Below, piece by piece: positions 10,529 through 46,331 of a DNA stretch of 64,000 bases. Position 1 is the stretch's first letter, and every line of letters begins with the position of its first letter. The translations under genes were made by a program, and so were the position numbers. The stretch is from assembly GCF_037392515.1 (NCBI RefSeq), contig NC_090290.1, positions 32,013,753 through 32,077,752 on the forward strand, written 5' to 3'. Source of the DNA: Haliotis asinina (Eukaryota; Mollusca; Gastropoda; Lepetellida; Haliotidae). The notes beneath the pieces are model-generated. The model was not told the origin of the DNA and ran no database searches. It worked only from the letters and a program-made list of their open reading frames with translations.

Positions 10529-11825
10529 TAGTCTGGTTCATAATTATTGAGAATTTTTCTTCTTACTTTGAGCTATCCTAACACCTCAACTGATTCACAG
10601 ATACTTAAAACTAAGTAATGGTATAAGGGAGGTAACTCATCTTGGCCTACTGAGTATAGTACAATTAGAGTCACCTCCCCTGAATTTGTAGCAGACGTCA
10701 TTTTCCTCAGCACTGTCAACAATGTCTGCTGAAGATAAAAGAAGGTTGATTTTTGAGTTGTGTAATCAAGGAATTGATGATGTAAATACATTGGCAGAGA
10801 GAACAGGAACTCCTCTTTCTACTGTGTATAGGATTAGGAAGAATTATAGAGAGGGAAAGGATTTTCGGCACCAGAAAGGAGCATGGAGACCCAGAAAATT
10901 GGACTTCTGAGATCGCGTCCGGCTGGGAATTTTAGCGTCTAAAAAGCAAAGGGCAAGCATCTCCAACATCAGGTATGAAATGATAGAAAGGGGATCAACA
11001 GTTGTATCAGAATCTACAGTTAGAAGAAATTTGATTGATCTTGGATGGGAGAAAAAGACTGGAATTCCTTCTCCTCTCATGAAACAAGAACATAAAGACA
11101 GGCGTGTTGAGTGGTGTTTGGCACATGAAAACTTTGACTGGGAAAATGTGATTTTTACTGATGAAAGCTCAATATGGGTATATCCCAATAATGTGAAAAT
11201 ATGGACAAAGTCTGCGTCAGCACCGTTGTATCCACGACCTAAATACAGCCCAAAGTTTCATGTATGGGGAGGGATATCCTTATTAGGAACGACCCCGCTG
11301 TGTGTGTTTGAGGGAAATCTGACAAGTCAACGCTACACTAACATATTAGATAATTTTCTCCTTCCAAGTGCACGTGTGTTTTATGGAAATGACTGGATTT
11401 TGCAGCAAGATAATGAACCTAAACACACCGCAAAACATGCCAAGCAGTGGTTTCAGGAGAAAAATGTGACTGCATTACCATTTCCTGCATATAGTCCTGA
11501 CTTAAATCCCATTGAGAACATTTGGGGGATGATGAAGGAATGTGTGAAGCAAAAGGGGTTGACAAAAATTGAAGACATGAAGAGAGAAGTGGTCCGATAC
11601 TGGGACAGCATAACTCACGAGACACTAACCTCTCTGATAGGAAGTATGCCTACCCGTCTTAGACTGTGCCGTGAAGCTCAAGGAGACTTGATAAAATATT
11701 AAATTTTTACCTACACAACAGGAAAAGGTCAGTTCACTTTTACAATACATTCAATTTTATCTGATTTGTTCTCGTTTAATGATATGAAATGCTTTAGCTA
11801 TTCTCAATAATTTTGAACCATACTG
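10529..11825 (+). mobile_element. Tc1-type DNA transposon, near-intact (1297 bp)
   Basis: The ends are inverted repeats of about 27 bp: left TAGTCTGGTTCATAATTATT and right (reverse complement) CAGTATGGTTCAAAATTATT, both followed by GAGAA. TA dinucleotides flank both ends (10527-10528 and 11826-11827), the target duplication expected for Tc1/mariner. It carries one transposase frame interrupted by a single stop. Its length equals the copy at 45258-46331 plus exactly 223 bp, so the two copies differ in length by one deletion only. Confidence 0.93.
10722..11702 (+). pseudogene. Tc1 family transposase (DD34E), one in-frame stop
   Basis: The protein cuts and pastes its own element by binding the terminal repeats and cleaving with a metal-dependent DDE catalytic triad. 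The N-terminal 60 residues look like the paired-type helix-turn-helix (MSAEDKRRLIFELCNQG, then TGTPLSTVYRIRKN). The catalytic residues are visible: first D in FTDESS, second D in QQDNEPKH, and E in SPDLNPIEN, with 34 residues between the last two, hence DD34E. A TGA at 10908-10910 interrupts the frame after about 62 codons, and the same frame continues afterwards through MIERGSTVVSE to the end at KY. Counting through the stop, the protein would be about 326 residues, near the usual Tc1 size of ~340. CGA to TGA is the simplest origin of the stop. All catalytic residues are otherwise present. Confidence 0.92.
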
Positions 11826-18553: not shown

Positions 18554-20640
18554 GTGATGTTACAGAATATGAGGCCTGTTTACTTTCACCAGGAACCAAG
18601 AAGGTTGACCAAGAAGACTCGAAATGACAACCAGCTTACATTCCTTCTGAGATGCCGGGATAAGAAACTAGTCCCTAAAGGCCTGCAATTGAAAACCTCC
18701 CTCCGACGGTCAACACCAGCTATTGCTAAGATCCTGCATGAAGCCAGCAGCAAGATACTGAAACACCAGATAAGCAACCTGAGGCAAGACAGGAGTCACA
18801 CAGCTAGTAGACAAGACCCTGAAAGACCCCATACCTTACAAACCTCTATAGAAAGATCCTACTGCCAAACTAGAGATACAGTCAAAGAAAACTCTGAAGA
18901 CCCTCCATACCAACAGAGAAATCAGTGATTCCATATTCAACCACCTCCATCCCAACAACTCCCAACAGCCATTTGCCCGTGTCACCGTCAAAATACATAA
19001 GAACCCTGTAAAGACTAGAATCCTTGTGTGCTCTAGAGGATCCGTCTACTACAACACGGCCCAACATCTATCCCGCATCCTAGCCCCACTGGGTAAATCT
19101 GGCAGCTCCTTTGTGAAAGAATTGGCATCCCTGGTACAGCAACTGAGAAACACCAGTGACACAAAAAAAGTTAGTCAGCTACGACGTGGTAGACCTATTT
19201 ACCAATATACCCATCAATATACCCATTCACATCCTATCTACTAGACTGGAAACATCTATACCAGACCTAGGCACCAAACTCACAACCCAAAGCATCGTCG
19301 ACCTCGTAAGTAAATGCTTCGAGACTTCATATTTCAACTGGAATGGCCAATTCTACCAACAGATCCATGGATTGCCAATTGGATCCCTTCTATCACCACT
19401 ACTGACAGAAATATACATATGCCTTTGAGGAAACTGCCTTGAAAATTGCACCATTCACACCAAAGTATTGCTTCCGCAAAATAGATGATGTCCTAGCCCT
19501 CCTGGACGACAACCAAGATCCAGAGGCCCTGCTGCAACACTTGAATTCCCAACACCCAAAAATTTAGTTCACAATGGAAGAAGAGACACACCACCAGCTT
19601 CCCTTCCTGGACATTCTTCTCCACCGACCCCAACAATCCATACCCACCAGTGTTTACCGTAAACCAACACATACGGATCAGTATATTCATCACCAGTCCA
19701 AGCATTACCTCCCAGATCAAGAAAAGCATAGTAGCTACCCTGGCACGTAGAGCAAAAGCGGTCTGCAGTCCAGACAGCGAATTTAAGCACCTGAAATCAA
19801 CCTTCCAAGACCTTAACGAGTACCCACCCCATCTAATCAGCAACACCATCACCAAAACCCTGAAAGAAACTCCTAAGTGAGCTAAACCAGAACCTTCCCC
19901 CATCAGAATTAACATACCATACCATGGCCAGATAAGTCATCGCATCAGCCGTCTCATGAAGACAACAACAGGAATAGGCGTGACCTTCCGTAGCGATACC
20001 AACCTGAAAACACTACTATCAGCTAATGGACGCAGGCCAACAACACCTAAATGCAACAATCCAGCAGGTTGCATCTACCAGATCCAATGTAGCTGTAAAC
20101 AGACATATATTGGAGAAACTGGTCGACCACTGGCTGTCAGGTTAAAAGAACACAAAACATCAGTTCAAACTTTGGATCAGAAGTCTGCTGTAAGTGAACA
20201 CATCATGCACAACCCCAATCACAAGATTGTTTGGGACAACGCCAGGACATTAGTTAGGAACGCCAATGACTTCAAAAGACGGAAGCTCCTAGAAGTCATT
20301 GCAATCAAGCGGAACAAGCCCTCAATCAACAGAAACGGTGGTGTTTACCTACCCAATGCAGGGAACCACCTTATCCTCAGTGACTAACCTTTATCCAAAC
20401 ATCTTTACCCGTAACTCGTTAATCTAATCAATGCAAGCCTGCACGCCAATCAATCGAAGCCTGTACATCAATTAATAGAAACCTGTATATCTTGTTACCC
20501 ATTGTCATCTGTCTACTGTTATGTGTATATATACTACATCCGTTTAGTTTTACCCTCACTTCACCTGACGAAGAGACTAGGAACTGTCTCGAAACGTTGT
20601 GACCTTGTATAATAAAGAAGTTGAACCATAAAGCATTTTT
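18554..20640 (+). mobile_element. Penelope-like retroelement, decayed
   Basis: Penelope-like elements encode a reverse transcriptase fused to a GIY-YIG endonuclease. Visible in order: an N-terminal part (QLTFLLRCRDKK, then GLQLKT, ILHEASSKIL; 18630-18790); RT motif A (VSYDVVDLFTNIPI, ~19170-19210); motif B (HGLPIGSLLSP, ~19365-19395); a motif C-like KIDDVLAL (~19478-19500) in place of the usual YVDD; LPFLDILLHR (~19600-19630) and VYRKPTHTDQY (~19650-19685); then an endonuclease segment (20064-20150) with CIYQIQCSCKQTYIGETGRP and R.KEHK, the last part of an intact 143-codon frame (19956-20387). The coding region is spread over all three frames with several frameshifts and stops, so it is inactive. 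The 3' end carries a hammerhead-like core and an AATAAAG before 20640. Confidence 0.9.
20565..20596 (+). ncRNA. Hammerhead-ribozyme-like core of the Penelope-like element
   Basis: The segment reads CTGACGA (20565-20571), stem strand GAGAC (20573-20577), loop TAGGAACT (20578-20585), complementary strand GTCTC (20586-20590) and then GAAAC (20591-20595). This is the CUGANGA - stem II - GAAA core arrangement of hammerhead ribozymes, which Penelope-like elements are known to carry. I cannot identify a convincing stem III and cleavage site, so self-cleavage is not established. Confidence 0.6.
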
Positions 20641-28589: not shown

Positions 28590-31122
28590 TCAGTTTGCCA
28601 ATTCATTAAATAATAGGTATTGCAATAGACTCGTGGGAGAGCTGGATTGTTGCTGTTGTCCCTGCTGCTGTTGACGACTTCTTGGATCTGAAACATAATG
28701 TAAAACCAACAGTATATTCATTGCATCTATAATTAAACACTGAGGCACATTCAGTGCTAGTCATCATTCAATACACAAAAGGTGAGTAACATTAAAGTAT
28801 TCAAATATATAGGGAAACGTTGAAAGATCAAAAGGTGACGACCATCAGAAACCTACCTGTATCTCAACAGTTCCTATAAGTGCTGCCTGCAGCTGCCGTG
28901 TCATGTGATATCAAAGATGTGAATAGTTAACATCAGGTGAGGTGAAATGAGACATGATGGTGCATTAAAACACTGTATGACACCGTGTGATTGTGTGTAA
29001 ATGTGACTGTGTGTGTGGTGGTGGTATTCACTATTTAAAGACAGCTAGTACATTCCAGGTCGCAACTAAATATCATTATCCAACTGCCTAACTCGTATCA
29101 ATCCTAGTTTTGTCCCGTTAATGTTTTGTCAAAGATTTTAGTAGGACGCTGTTGCAGAACGCACCAACGACCCTGTGCAGTTTTATTCATTGAGGAGATA
29201 AATGATATTTACTCACAATCAAGGGTTATGCCACTAACGTCATGTATTTAGGCATGGTTAGACTCTTACACTGATTGTGCACCTGGTAACAGAGTGACTT
29301 CTTGCAGATTCCTATATTTCAAAGTAAGTGTGTCATGTGTAGTCTACCATACAATGTCATACGTTCGAACCGCTGGATTTTCGCTAAACAACGGAAATAA
29401 CAAACTCAATGAACACCCAACCAGTTACTTTGTCTTCTTTCACGAAATAACTTGCATCACCACCAGGATGGTTTCCTTATACACGGTCGTTATAATCCGC
29501 TTATGTTATTAGTTGTACTTTCATTCAAGATTGTGAGATTATTGTGAGATTATTGTGAGATTATTTTCAGCACTGTTAGGAGGTCATGGTAACGCTTGTT
29601 ATCAGTCACATACTGTTGTCAATGTTAATCTGCAGCTCATGGTAATGCTTGTTATCAGTCACATACTGTTGTCAATGTTAATCTGCAGCTCATGGTAATG
29701 CTTGTTATCAGTCACATACTGTTGTCAATGTTAATCTGCAGCTCGTGGTAATGCTTGTTATCAGTCACATACTGTTGTCAATGTTAATCTGCAGCTCATG
29801 GTAATGCTTGTTATCAGTCACATACTGTTGTCAATGTTAATCTGCAGCTCGTGGTAATGCTTGTTATCAGTCACATACTGTTGTCAATGTTAATCTGCAG
29901 CTTGTCACAACATGCTCTGTATATCACAACCTGGCTACGGCGTGTGCGAAATATGCATCATGTAGGAAAGTGCACGTAAACTCTCCAAATCATCGTCACT
30001 GATTGTTATGTTTGTTTGTTGCTTAATACCGTCATTATCACTAGTCTAGCTGTCTGGACCTAATACCGTCATTATCACTAGTCTAGCTGTCTGGACCAGA
30101 CAATGCAGTGATCAACAGCATGAGGATCGATTGACCTAACTGGATACGGTGACGTGTGTCAGCCACGTCAGCAAGCCTGAACACCCGACCAAAGGGGATG
30201 GGTTCTAGAGGTCTACAAGTTCTAACCATGATCTTCATCAGTTGTAGTCATTACAGCAAGATTAAGGTGTATCGATTTACGCCCGTTACGTCAATGTGTG
30301 TTAAATGTGAAGCGGTTATCCATAAAAAATGGTATGTTTCATTAATCGGTACCAGATACACAATAAGAATCCATTTGTACGGACAGCATTTGAAGGCAAA
30401 CTTTGAACACTACTTTTTCGGAAGGAAAAACAATGATTTTATGACGGAGGAATGCCCCCTTTTTGGAGGATGGTACATATGTAAAATGCACTTACAGTCA
30501 CAGACTGTGTTGTTGAAACGAGACACATATCCGGGGTAACACTGACAGCTGAAGCTGCCCGGCTGATTGACACAGCGTCCTTGGTTACAAATGGTCCCGT
30601 ATGCAATCTTGCACTCGTCAAAATCTGTAAAGGTTTATCACAGTGTCAGTATTTCAAATCGGTCATCTATGAATGCTTAATCCTAGTAAATTAAACTGTG
30701 TCATTTGACAGCTGACTCATATCTGAATGCCTTGGTTCTGATGAGTGTATATAACTGGTTTTGTTTAAAGGGAATTACATCACATCTATACACTGCCATA
30801 TGTCGCTCAGAAGTCGATAGGTACAGGGCATTAATACAACTCATAACAAATCTCACCTTCACAAATATTTGCATCCAGGATGGAGTATGTGTATCCAGGG
30901 TTACACAGACACACCGGATTAACGAGAAATGGGGGTCCCAGACACACGCCGTTCTGGCAACCCACTACTGTACATAGTGCTGAAATATACAGACAGTGGT
31001 AGTGATTGTTGATTAAGCATATGGAGACAGATACAGCTGTACGTATACATACCTTGGCCATGGATATACTGAACTATTCCAGACAAGCCAAAAGTATACA
31101 GCACATAAGCTACAGGTTTCAT
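28590..31122 (-). CDS. Secreted protein with two EGF-like domains, 139 aa, four exons
   Basis: Exon 1 (31122-31053) starts [13 protein letters not shown] and encodes a signal peptide ending near HGQ. Exon 2 (30979-30857) is one EGF domain with Cys 26, 31, 36, 47, 49 and 63. Exon 3 (30624-30496) is a calcium-binding-type EGF domain: DFDEC start, [12 protein letters not shown] core, Cys 69, 77, 82, 91, 93 and 106. Exon 4 (28687-28590) is a Gln-rich tail ([12 protein letters not shown]) ending in FNELAN and TGA. Donors are GTATGT, GTGAGA and GTAAGT; acceptors are 'atatttcag', 'ctttacag' and 'tatgtttcag'. Every intron is phase 1, as in shuffled EGF modules. The frame closes exactly at 420 nt. Introns are 73, 232 and 1808 nt; the last holds a six-copy minisatellite and a SINE. 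It is the head-to-head paralogue of the plus-strand gene at 32342. There is no membrane segment, so it is extracellular. The role is not known; short EGF proteins occur in molluscan matrices. Confidence 0.88.
29585..29902. repeat. Minisatellite, six copies of 53 bp
   Basis: Units start at 29585, 29638, 29691, 29744, 29797 and 29850 and are nearly identical (CATGGTAATGCTTGTTATCA start, TTAATCTGCAGCT end; one or two substitutions per unit). It lies in intron 3 of the minus-strand EGF gene. Near-identity implies recent expansion, so copy number may vary between individuals. A 12 bp 'attgtgagatt' triplication sits just upstream at 29531-29563. Confidence 0.97.
30003..30200 (+). mobile_element. 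Abalone-type short repeat with internal 37 bp duplication
   Basis: The core 'ctggaccagacaatgcagtgatcaacagcatgag' to 'tcagcaagcctgaacacccgacc' matches the family at 7915-8125. The segment 'taataccgtcattatcacta' through 'tctggacc' occurs twice in tandem (about 30025-30098). It lies in intron 3 of the EGF gene. Confidence 0.8.
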
Positions 31123-31154
31123 AGCTGCTTCCACAAAGTTAACGATACGTGTGT

Positions 31155-31162
31155 CTTATAAA
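31155..31162 (-). promoter_or_regulatory. TATA-like box (TTTATAAG)
   Basis: On the minus strand 'cctttataagac' lies about 35-40 bp before the ATG at 31122, in the position expected if the leader is very short. Confidence 0.5.
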
Positions 31163-32296
31163 GGAATGTTTCCGGATACGTCTAATGGACAACATCCAGC
31201 TATATACCTGACAAATTATTTCTTATTGCCATTGTTGGAATTCATCGAATGACCGACATGTGACCACGCATGACCTCTCATATGTGAATAACGTCCTATT
31301 GTTTGTGTGCGTGTACACTATCACATCTCGATCGCACAAAATGATATATGGGCATGTACAAAATGGAATGTGTGAAAAGGAAGAAAGGAAATACAAAAGT
31401 TGGTCATACAAAAAGACAAAAACACGTATTGAAGATGTAAGTAGCATGGCTCACACATATATGCACATGTATGTATTTTATTGCTTTGAAATTGATGGAA
31501 GTCTAACCAAAAAGTGGAAGTGTAAAATAAACTAAATAAAACCATGGCATTTCTCATGGTTTGTATTGAGAAACTGTGTATCCGAGTGATTTTCCAGATA
31601 AAGAAGCAAAACAACTTTAAATATTTCCATATATTAAGTTAAGAGCATCCACCCCAAGTAAAACTGACAGCATCTCATCATCATCCAACGATTCTAGTTT
31701 TACATAAGCATCAACTTAAACTTATCAATTTGAAAGTCTTCTACATCAGTAGAGTGGTGCTACAATGGTCATCTGCCAGCATGTGTGAAACTCGACTTGA
31801 TACATTTGAATACTTGAATACACAATGACTGTATATATAGTTAACTATATTTATGTGTGAACGTAAGAGTTTGAATTGCTCAGATACACATAAATTCTCT
31901 TACATATAATGTTATAGGGATATTTATCAAATAATGTTCACATTTTCAATCAAGGGATTCGTCAAAGAATTAAATATCCATTCAATTTATGTTTTATTTT
32001 CAAGAGTGAATCACCTTTTTTACTCTCCAACGAGAAATGGCGCTTACTATCTACCGCCTTTTTTCATTGCTTATCTCCTTCAAAATGTAACAATATTTAA
32101 AGGTACGTGTAGCAAATATATGTCGGTGACCACTGACATGCCCGGGCATGAAGGAATATCTAACAGTCATTTGTTCTTTAGCCGTTTGCCCCGTCCGATG
32201 AGTCAAGGTACTTTTGACCCTCCGGCTCAAGAGAATGTCCTTTGTCCATGATACTTGTTGGCCTACGCACAGTAGAAAAAAATGCCATATCTTGAG

Positions 32297-32304
32297 CATA
32301 AATA
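32297..32304 (+). promoter_or_regulatory. TATA-like box (CATAAATA)
   Basis: 'gcataaataagcc' lies 38-45 bp before the ATG at 32342, mirroring the arrangement of the opposite-strand paralogue. Confidence 0.45.
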
Positions 32305-32341
32305 AGCCATACTGCCGGGTCGGGTACAATAGCTACAAACC

Positions 32342-32518
32342 ATGCCTACTATCATCAGTGCCACTCTCGCTGCAGCCATCGTCGCTGTGTCCGTACACCA
32401 CATCAACGCTCAAGGTATAGTCATATGTAACATTGTATTTTTCAAACTTTGAGTTGGATATACACATGAATTAACACACACACGCACGCACACACACACA
32501 CATACACACGCGCGCGCG

Positions 32519-32564
<46 letters not shown>

Positions 32565-34935
32565 CCCTCCAGTCAATGATTAAATCGATATGTTGGAATA
32601 TTCTTAAACTGCACTTCCATTGTACTAAGGAGTATTTATTTATTCAAATATAGGTTTTGTGTTGTATCTCCTACTGTCGTTTTAGCCGCCCTCTGCACTG
32701 TGAGTGGGTGTGTGAATGGCGTGTGCCTTCAGCCACCATTAGTACCAGTACCAACATGTCAGTGTGAGGAAGGATTTGAGAAGACATTCCAAGATCTCAA
32801 CGTTTGTGTCGGTAAGCAATTCATGACAATGTAACAAGTAGTGAAATTCATGACATAACATGACACATGAAATATCTGGAAGCGGTCATCATGTATGTCT
32901 TAGCGTCTGTACTTCTGTAAATGTGACCCAATCATTGATATTTCCATTGCACTCTAGATCGATCAGTTATGTTCTATTGCACGCCCATATCTCTCACAAA
33001 TAGTGTCAGACTTATGAAAATATGTAAGTGGGATGAAATGACAAATTATTTTATCTTAACTCATACATAAATGTCGTTTTCTAAGTGACTGAGCCAATCA
33101 ATGTATCGCGCTTACAAGCGAGTAACATTTCCCATGTTCCCCACTGGAAATGCTGAGGTTTGAGAATTCGCTAGTTAATTTGTGTTAGCATTGTTTATGT
33201 TGTTTCTTAACTCCTGTACTCCTTATTATGATCCAGTACTCGTGATTCAAATAGTTCAAAATGAACAATGAGATCGACAGTAAGATAAATATGTTTTTCA
33301 CCGATCCCTCCAGGCCCATATGTTATTGTACCCTCTATGTTTGTTTATGCTCCTTCGGGTCTATGGAGGGTCCATAAAAAAATGCCCCCTTGTGCTCTGA
33401 GAACAACTTATAATATTGCTTCCTGTTTGATCTGCATTCTAGACGTTGGTGAGTCATAAATGAGACAACTTTATGGATGACAACTTCGTGTTTATTGCAT
33501 ACAGCTTCGTTTCTGTGTAGATTCTTATAGCGTTTAAAAACGGTTTTAGTCTGAAAACGGTATAACAGTCTACATCAGTGTAACGTACCTCTATGCAATA
33601 CACAAGAAGCTGTCATCTTGTTGTGTTACAGTTGCACTCTCCGATTTCAAGTATCACGGTATCAGTACTGAGTATTGTAGTGTAAGAGTACATAACTTTA
33701 TGAGAACATGCGCTCAAAACTAGAAAATAATCACGCTCGAATATCTGGAACAGATTCAACTGGGTGTTAAATGAGTGAGTGAGTTAATACCTAACGTCAC
33801 ATCGGCAATGTTTCGGCCATATTGTAACGAAGGATGTGAAAAGAAAATTAGTGATGAGTTAGTGACACTGTCAGTGATTGAACTTCTGAGACATAAACAC
33901 GGTTTGATCGTTAACGAATTGAAAAGCAGGTGTTGGATTGTAATGAGATTTTTCTTTTCTTTTCGTGACATGAAAGTTGAATAAAACGCACATGCCCCAA
34001 AGTATACGAGGAACAGAAAAATGAAGACAGCACAATTTGGAGCTGAAATATATGCTAAACATGAACCTTGTCGGATGTCTCAAGGTTTGGCACAGAGGCA
34101 GTATGATATATCTTCATGTCATTCTATGGGAATAGGCATTTTGTCACATATATTGGTATGTTCTCATAAATACCTACAGAGTATTTTTACTTGACTTTAC
34201 ATCGAGTTTAGCTTTTAATATAATCACATCCATGCTTGTATTCAGATCGAGATGAGTGCAGAATAGCTACGGGGACCATCTGTGGCCCTGGAAGGTGTAT
34301 CAATACACCTGGCCTCTTCATGTGCGAGTGTACACCGCCTTTTGTTCCTGTCTACAATGCCACGTGGTGTGCTCGTAAGTAGAACTGAATACATATTTTC
34401 GGGAAGATGGACATCACACAAATGGATCAACACAATATAAGTGGCACTGTATTGAAGCCAGAGACCACAATAGACAAGTGCGATATCCGCTGTATGCATA
34501 TGAGGGTAGTACTGTACATAATATCGAATTTGAAGCCACCGGCATGGTTGATTAAATTTTGTTCCCAGTACTCACTGTCTGGAAACGTCGGAAGTTTTTC
34601 CAAACATATTTCCCTAACATTGTCACAAGAACACAATGTCCACGCTTGTGTGTGTCCCAGGTGTACATTACCTCACGATCATATTGTCTTGTATCACAGT
34701 CAACATATTCAGAAGTACAGTATTAACTTCAACGTAAAATGGTCACGTTACTCCACATTTCAAAAATGATTTGGTGAGAAGCGATTCAGTAATTGCATTT
34801 CCAGAATCAGGAATCCTATCGTACATTGCATCACTTGTTCTTGTTCCAGCTCCACCTCCGCCTCCACAGAAGAGCCAGGACACCTACCAGAACTTGGTAC
34901 GATACGCCGTAATAGATGAGGTTCTCAAAAAGTAA
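32342..34935 (+). CDS. Secreted protein with two EGF-like domains, 137 aa, four exons
   Basis: Exon 1 (32342-32414) encodes a signal peptide, [20 protein letters not shown] and INAQ. Exon 2 (32686-32811) is an EGF domain with Cys 28, 33, 38, 49, 51 and 65. Exon 3 (34246-34374) is a calcium-binding-type EGF domain: DRDEC start, [12 protein letters not shown] core, Cys 71, 79, 84, 93, 95 and 108. Exon 4 (34850-34935) gives a Pro-rich hinge (PPPPPQKSQ) and a short tail ending VLKK. Donors are GTATAG, GTAAGC and GTAAGT; acceptors are 'cgttttag', 'tgtattcag' and 'cttgttccag'. All introns are phase 1 and the exons sum to 414 nt. Exon 3 has the same length as in the minus-strand paralogue and all 12 cysteines align, while signal peptide and tail have diverged. 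Introns are 271, 1434 and 475 nt. Predicted extracellular; calcium binding is inferred from the D.DEC motif. A variant poly(A) signal ATTAAA follows near 34957. Confidence 0.88.
32478..32561. repeat. (CA)n microsatellite with CGCG interruption
   Basis: CA repeats with a central (CG)n run lie in intron 1 of the plus-strand EGF gene, about 64 bp past its donor. Confidence 0.95.
33290..33425 (+). repeat. Dispersed hairpin-type repeat, copy 3
   Basis: 'taccctctatgtttgtttatg' to 'tctatggagggtccataaa' repeats the ACCCTC...GAGGGT hairpin and the 'gagaacaacttataat' end seen at 1141 and 20645. It lies in intron 2 of the plus-strand EGF gene. Confidence 0.6.
33771..33840 (+). repeat. Fragment of an abalone-type repeat
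   Basis: 'gagtgagtgagttaatacctaacgtcacatcggcaatgtttcggccat' is a shared interspersed sequence also seen, inverted and shorter, at 17936-17998. Confidence 0.55.
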
Positions 34936-45257: not shown

Positions 45258-46331
45258 CAGTATGGTTCAAAATTATTGAGAATAGCTAAAGCATTTCATA
45301 TTATTAAACGAGAACAAATCAGATAAAATTGAATGTATTGTGAAAGTGAACTGACCTTTTCATGTTGTGTAGGTAACAATTTAATATTTTATCAAGTCTC
45401 CTTGAGCTTCACGGCACAGTCTAAGACGGGTAGGCATACTTCCTATCAGAGAGGTTAGTGTCTCGTGAGTTATGCTGTCCCAGTATCGGACCACTTCTCT
45501 CTTCATGTCTTCAATTTTTGTCAACCCCTTTTGATTCACACATTCCTTCATCATCCCCCAAATGTTCTCAATGGGATTTAAGTCAGGACTATATGCAGGA
45601 AATGGTAATGCAGTCACATTTTTCTCCTGAAACCACTGCTTGGCATGTTTTGCGGTGTGTTTAGGATCATTATCTTGCTGCAAAATCCAGTCATTTCCAT
45701 AAAACACATGTGCACTTGGAAGGAGAAAATTATCTAATATGTTAGTGTAGCGTTGACTTGTCAGATTTCCCTCAAACACACACAGCGGGGTCGTTCCTAA
45801 TAAGGATATCCCTCCCCATACATGAAACTTTGGGCTGTATTTAGGTCGTCGATACAACGGTGCTGACGCAGACTTTGTCCATATTTTCACATTATTGGGA
45901 TATACCCATATTGAGCTTTCATCAGTAAAAATCACATTTTCCCAGTCAAAGTTTTCATGTGCCAAATACCACTCAACACGCCTGTCTGGTGCCCAAAATC
46001 CTTTCCCTCTTTAAAATTCTTCCTAATCCTATACACAGTAGAAAGAGGAGTTCCTGTTCTCTCTGCCAGTGCATTTACATCATCAATTCCTTGATTACAC
46101 AACTCAAAAATCAACCTTCTTTTATCTTCAGCAGACATTGTTGACAGTGCTGAGGAAAATGACGTCTGCTACAAATTCAGGGGAGGTAACTCTAATTGTA
46201 CTATACTCAGTAGGCCAAGATGAGTTACCTCCCTTATACCATTACTTAGTTTTAAGTATCAGTGAATAAGTTGAGGTGTTAGGATAGCTCAAAGTAAGAA
46301 GAAAAATTCTCAATAATTATGAACCAGACTA
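45258..46331 (-). mobile_element. Tc1-type DNA transposon, internally deleted copy (1074 bp)
   Basis: It has the same terminal repeats as 10529-11825, again flanked by TA on both sides (45256-45257 and 46332-46333). It is shorter than that copy by exactly 223 bp. The deletion joins sequence matching 10873 to sequence matching 11096 at a shared AGA, so it looks like a microhomology deletion. It lacks the TGA stop of the other copy, because the stop lies within the deleted part. Confidence 0.93.
45381..46138 (-). pseudogene. Tc1 transposase with 223 bp internal deletion
   Basis: The N-terminal helix-turn-helix part (MSAEDKRRLIFELCNQG...) and the catalytic part are both present. The latter keeps FTDESS, QQDNDPKH and SPDLNPIEN, the DD34E triad. 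The deletion removes about 74 codons between them and shifts frame (223 is not a multiple of three). Substitutions relative to the 10.7 kb copy are few, including N to A near residue 22, QQDNE to QQDND, and VKQK to VNQK. Confidence 0.92.

Follow-up and report, generated by a model that had tools for sequence, protein, structure and literature searches.

Two head-to-head EGF-cbEGF genes of Haliotis asinina as members of a multicopy, probably secreted family

Described EGF proteins and the gene pair

Pairs of an EGF and a calcium-binding EGF (cbEGF) domain of the fibrillin type are short rods stiffened by Ca2+. In LTBP1 and fibrillin-1 (9r3s_C and 1lmj_A), the two domains follow each other over a short Ca2+-type linker and are part of large multidomain matrix proteins, whose mark is the TB (8-Cys) domain. 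The adhesion GPCR E5 (CD97, 9mqr_A) is a membrane receptor in which EGF repeats follow one another, and EGFR ligands have an EGF domain with the cysteine spacing C-x7-C-x4-5-C-x10-13-C-x-C-x8-C. In molluscs, EGF domains are found in the EGF-ZP shell matrix proteins, represented by ELDP1 and ELDP2 of Lottia (PMC4094399) and by EGF-ZP1-3 of Crassostrea, which are neighbouring duplicate genes in the oyster (PMC5379566). In addition, the main text of PMC6003135 describes Gln-rich disordered proteins of the abalone shell.

Here, we describe two genes of Haliotis asinina, A and B, that are comparable to these systems in part. They lie in a window (the whole stretch of DNA analysed) of 64 kb, which corresponds to C11:32,013,753-32,077,752 in a genome of 1.14 Gb. 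This genome has six Egg_lysin matches, all on C14, compared with matches in 0/14 control genomes, as would suit a vetigastropod such as abalone. Gene A extends from 31122 to 28590 on the minus strand and encodes a product of 139 aa, and gene B extends from 32342 to 34935 on the plus strand and encodes 137 aa. Their features, in window positions, are:

31053..31122, minus strand: gene A exon 1 (70 nt), ATG and signal peptide (by eye); GT donor, phase 1
30857..30979, minus strand: gene A exon 2 (123 nt), first EGF domain (EGF1) with six Cys; AG/GT, phase 1; hmmsearch with our own model
30496..30624, minus strand: gene A exon 3 (129 nt), calcium-binding-type EGF; AG/GT; Pfam EGF_CA
28590..28687, minus strand: gene A exon 4 (98 nt), Gln-rich spacer and C-terminal peptide, stop TGA; AG acceptor, phase 1, frame open to the stop; tail compared with cluster tails
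31123..32341, no strand: divergent intergenic region of 1219 bp that holds both TATA-like boxes
32342..32414, plus strand: gene B exon 1 (73 nt), ATG and signal peptide (by eye); GT donor, phase 1
32686..32811, plus strand: gene B exon 2 (126 nt), first EGF domain with six Cys; AG/GT; our own model
34246..34374, plus strand: gene B exon 3 (129 nt), calcium-binding-type EGF; AG/GT; Pfam EGF
34850..34935, plus strand: gene B exon 4 (86 nt), Pro-rich spacer and C-terminal peptide, stop TAA; AG acceptor, frame open to the stop; tail compared with cluster tails

The coordinates and both four-exon models had been proposed in the initial annotation, and they were borne out by canonical GT-AG junctions, by phase 1 at all three introns of each gene and by frames open to the stop. 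The same is true of the gap of 1219 bp from ATG to ATG, of the third exon of 129 nt in A and B, and of the 12 cysteines that align between the two products. Pfam agreed with the order of an EGF and a cbEGF-type domain, and the N-termini of both proteins, judged by eye, do resemble signal peptides.

In Pfam, gene A scored 33.7 bits for EGF_CA (cut-off 27) and was also over the cut-off for EGF, and gene B was over the cut-off for EGF (22.6 bits, cut-off 21.5) and under it for EGF_CA (24.0 bits, cut-off 27). The calcium ligand motif of cbEGF domains consists of D/N-x-D/N-E-C and C-x-D/N-x4-F/Y-x-C. Both parts were recognized by eye in 7/7 proteins of our alignment of two-EGF family members. In the EGF pair, a single residue lies between the sixth Cys of EGF1 and the first of the cbEGF calcium ligands. 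In domain order and in this short linker, A and B are like the pairs of LTBP1 and fibrillin-1. A PDB search with B gave LTBP1 (9r3s_C) as best match, over both EGFs (residues 24-111, E = 9e-16), and a profile of the family matched the same chain with E = 7.7e-19; the match of A to LTBP1 was weak (2.4e-6). The best match of A was adhesion GPCR E5 (1.1e-15), as was that of the family profile (7e-27), which was followed in the profile search by LTBP1, fibrillin-1, and NELL2. However, A and B comprise only two EGFs and a short tail, unlike the large matrix proteins, and no TB family was among the Pfam families listed for them at E up to 1. The similarity of A and of the profile to adhesion GPCR E5 runs through several cbEGF repeats, but A and B do not have such a receptor part.

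With the EGF-ZP shell proteins the A/B family shares its molluscan origin, its probable extracellular location and an EGF domain. However, those proteins have a ZP domain, and none of the 26 ZP matches in the genome was on C11. An identity with, or origin from, EGF-ZP shell proteins was therefore rejected. The Gln-rich abalone shell proteins have glutamine blocks, as does the A/B family, but they are described as disordered in the main text of PMC6003135, unlike the EGF-bearing A and B. Since the term "EGF" has 0 occurrences in the main text (apart from supplements) of this H. laevigata shell proteome paper, a shell-matrix role is not favoured. No description of the family was found in the literature searched, which comprised papers outside subscription and excluded supplements, and the parts consulted of PMC4094399, PMC5379566, PMC9365450, PMC8700984, and PMC6003135 do not describe a two-EGF protein with such a tail. 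The family may be undescribed, which this literature does not contradict.

A family on one contig

The genes had been annotated as a pair. Their pairing stands, but it understates the situation, as about 16 gene copies were found, all on C11. Besides A and B there are about 14 further copies, of which 13 form a cluster at C11:45.82-45.99 Mb, 13.8 Mb from A and B, and one (g14) lies alone at 2.14 Mb; these counts are lower bounds and come from genome searches in which B, A, g3, and g5 were the queries. Within the cluster g5 and g6 are on the minus strand, and g1-g4, g7, and g8-g13 on the plus strand. Gene models with four exons are complete for A, B, g2-g5, and g7, and models with three exons for g6, g8, g9, and g10. 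The model of g1 comprises the second and third exons and probably the first, with the tail not placed. Parts of g11 and g14 were read, exon 1 of the former being a search match only, and g12 and g13 are search matches alone. Among the matches listed, the best ones to exon 1, to EGF1 and to the tail were all on C11. Outside C11 there are many matches to the cbEGF, and some weaker ones that extend in a single frame into part of EGF1 (as at C7:12.36 Mb, where g5 residues 37-102 matched with E = 1.8e-4) or contain stops. These are presumably generic EGF repeats that belong to other genes. Next to the EGF cluster (C11:45.867-45.948 Mb) there are duplicated exons that, judged by eye, look like those of SLC6-type transporters.

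The similarity of A and B (BLASTP, 44% identity over 122 aa, E = 4e-37) is far beyond chance, given this E value and the recurrence of the same four-exon plan, with intact frames, in five cluster genes. Twelve invariant Cys are present in each of the seven two-EGF proteins aligned, a set that excludes the incomplete g1 and the single-EGF genes. The 129-nt third exon is not a constant of the family, as its length is 126, 162, or 165 nt in the cluster genes. EGF_CA (PF07645) was matched with 31.7 bits by g5 and with 27.0 bits, at the cut-off of 27, by g9; g3, which has an insertion, was not listed for it.

Judged by their divergence, A and B are old paralogues. An identical residue is found in 45/85 aligned codons of the EGF part, for which dN is 0.47 and dS 3.2 (saturated). 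Once the trivial overlap of the two compared stretches is disregarded, the blastn alignment of the gene regions is limited to exon 3 (90 nt at 70%) plus four short matches, each 13-23 nt long. The duplication that gave rise to A and B must therefore be old. Their cbEGF domains have a one-residue insertion and the motif IAxGTIC in common. In a tree of the eight two-EGF genes (A, B, g1-g5, and g7; the single-EGF genes were dropped because they are without EGF1), A and B were split from the six cluster genes with support of 85/86, under the star level of the program, and both had long branches. The initial annotation had seen a clear inverted duplication. Paralogy and head-to-head order are as it claimed, but the event is not clear, as the sequence holds no record of it. 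An old inverted duplication is nevertheless a plausible source of the arrangement, since it would leave genes head to head, as A and B are.

Tails and domain number

In all modelled genes the tail is encoded by a separate, phase-1 last exon coding 29-34 residues, in which a P/Q-rich spacer precedes a hydrophobic-acidic ending. In 10/10 tails examined (excluding g9 and g10, whose tail is the same as that of g8, and g1 and g12-g14), an ending that fits hh(h)[DNSE][ED][LV] was present no more than 8 residues from the stop; this pattern was chosen after seeing the tails, and its frequency among shuffled tails is 0.2 to 4.6%. The tails of g3 and g5, for example, end in ...QQQQQQQLLQRLLNQLLLSELL and ...YSLFLFDELFDFDFDLF. 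The view that the tails of A and B are unrelated thus did not hold, considering their shared terminal-exon position, P/Q-rich spacer and type of ending, together with sequence evidence of moderate strength.

This evidence comes from shuffle tests. With gapped alignment of whole tails, the number of shuffles that reached the observed score in each of two runs of 2000 was 1 and 4 for A-g3, 2 and 2 for A-g2, 6 and 18 for B-g3, 28 and 36 for B-g11, 36 and 54 for B-g5, 42 and 45 for A-g5, 112 and 116 for A-B, and 130 and 111 for g3-g5, where the scores of A-g2 and A-g3 lean on Q runs, which shuffling disperses. Without gaps, the A-B score was reached by 1502/20000 shuffles for whole tails and by 128/20000 for the last 15 residues. 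Taken alone, the ungapped and gapped tests are weak as direct proof of homology between these two tails. When the spacer was removed, ten pairs of tail ends were reached by 19 to 1230 of 2000 shuffles, a weak result in most pairs (B-g3 19, A-B 49, A-g3 91, A-g2 164, A-g5 191, A-g11 235, g3-g5 526, B-g5 535, B-g2 1011, and B-g11 1230). Homology among the tails of the family is therefore proposed with moderate strength, as the grounds for it are the position of the exon, the composition of the tails and a loosely defined ending. Genes g2-g4 have the Q-rich spacer in common with A, and our guess is that the Pro-rich spacer of B could be a derived form.

Four cluster genes (g6, g8, g9, and g10) have no EGF1 exon, and in their products the signal peptide is followed in frame by the cbEGF. 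The frame is kept because the EGF1 exon is of phase 1 at both ends. An intron of g6 contains a stretch of 27 nt that is similar to the final part of the g7 EGF1 exon (1/1000 shuffles) and that was absent from the blastn listing at E 0.01. For g6, this remnant-like stretch favours a loss of EGF1 over a gain. No remnants of the exon were detected in g8, g9, and g10, whose best scores were within those of shuffles (432, 662, and 481 of 1000, respectively). The domains are ordinary ones. On a small scale, the family cleanly illustrates that a secreted family with symmetric phase-1 exons can alter its domain count with the frame unbroken.

Possible roles and alternatives

The plan of the family is a signal peptide, an EGF, a cbEGF, a P/Q-rich spacer and a hydrophobic-acidic C-terminus. 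Our preferred reading, to which we give a probability of about 0.45, is that A and B are intact old paralogues within a secreted family of about 16 copies and act as structural adaptors in an extracellular secretion. By analogy with fibrillin-type pairs, the EGF pair would bind Ca2+ and form a short stiffened rod. The flexible P/Q-rich spacer would then present the C-terminal peptide, which might self-associate or dock to another matrix protein, and it is from such a rod and such a presented peptide that an adaptor role would follow. The setting could be shell matrix, cuticle, mucus or egg coat. In favour of this reading are the 12 invariant Cys, the Pfam matches, the matches to LTBP1, the low dN/dS among cluster copies, the TATA-like promoters and the recurrent type of ending. 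The observations against it include the EGF_CA score of B, which is under the cut-off, the top PDB match of A and of the profile, which is a receptor instead of a matrix protein, and the weak similarity of most tail ends once the spacer is removed. A bolder proposal, which we regard as a long shot, is that this is a vetigastropod-restricted short EGF-cbEGF family expanded on a single chromosome, in which the C-terminal peptide would drive Ca2+-dependent self-assembly and the single-EGF members, produced by in-frame loss of a phase-1 exon, would be shorter units. For mollusc biologists, the family provides some 16 gene copies that can be sought in data from mantle, foot and gonad.

The proteins could also be immune, venom-like or gamete-coat effectors under diversification, whose copies change by exon loss and spacer change. 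We consider this unlikely, although it would agree with the tandem copies, the single-EGF members and the divergence of spacers and signal peptides, because dN/dS is low among the cluster copies. It was below 1 in 9/9 cluster pairs compared and ranged from 0 to 0.44 (g3/g4 0.07, g2/g3 0.28, g2/g4 0.28, g5/g7 0.19, g8/g9 0.27, g9/g10 0 with no amino acid change, g6/g8 0.30, g6/g7 0.44, and g3/g5 0.15 with saturated dS), values that apply to cluster copies only, as synonymous sites are saturated between A and B. The EGF-cbEGF protein cores of g5 and g7 (C11:45896448-45899234 and 45928039-45929856) are identical, which also speaks against diversification, yet their whole-coding dS is 0.17.

Somewhat less probable still is that A and B are soluble signalling or receptor-modulating ligands, expressed as a divergent-promoter pair of EGF-like hormones. 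Their small size, probable secretion, membership of a multigene family and TATA-like promoters are all compatible with this idea. TATA-like matches were found at -40 of gene A (TTTATAAG) and at -44 of gene B (ATAAATAA), and 40-62 nt upstream of the ATG in 11/11 promoters examined (g1 and g11-g14 excluded), where about 0.055 per promoter would be expected by chance for nearly the same range; both pattern and range were set after seeing the sequences. However, the EGF1 spacing of A and B, C-x4-C-x4-C-x10-C-x-C-x13-C, differs from that of EGFR ligands, with which they have the EGF domain in common. In addition, no long hydrophobic stretch was seen by eye after the signal peptide, and the cbEGF type is usually structural.

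It is doubtful that A, B or both have fallen silent or are in decay. A dispersed repeat in intron 2 of B and a minisatellite in intron 3 of A might suggest so, but both frames are intact over four exons, all junctions are canonical, and every Cys has been kept at about three synonymous changes per site.

Finally, it is very improbable that the exons of A and B were cut short from longer extracellular genes of multi-EGF or EGF-ZP type, despite the many generic cbEGF exons genome-wide (for example the run of matches at C3:44.97-45.03 Mb), since models of the A and B EGF exons found no EGF exon in the 64-kb window besides these four, all 10 tails examined stop at most 8 residues past the shared ending, ZP matches on C11 were 0/26, and eight of the long ORFs that overlap the tail exons or lie past them had no match to an extracellular domain in Pfam. 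A longer multi-EGF gene is thus unsupported; a loose six-cysteine pattern run across the window gave dinucleotide-repeat artefacts as its only extra matches.

The minisatellite in intron 3 of gene A has a 53-bp unit in six copies (window 29584-29902), and the dispersed repeat in intron 2 of gene B (window ~33037-33416) has at least 40 further matches, two of them neighbouring on C6. Intron 3 of gene A also contains a short repeat (window 30089-30188) that is matched once on C13 and once on C10; in each case, a copy of the repeat from intron 2 of B lies within 1 kb. Elsewhere in the window, a probable two-exon secreted gene on the minus strand (16861-16804 and 15970-13005) would encode 1007 aa rich in Q (13.4%), S (13.3%), N (12.6%), and P (11.9%); its first exon is signal-peptide-like, and its only Pfam match is a weak one to Extensin_1, under the cut-off. 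An ORF at 19881-20387 (plus strand), without a match in Pfam, resembles by eye the GIY-YIG-type end of a Penelope-like element, and two copies of a DDE_3 (Tc1-like) transposase are located at 10911-11702 (plus strand) and 45381-46010 (minus strand).
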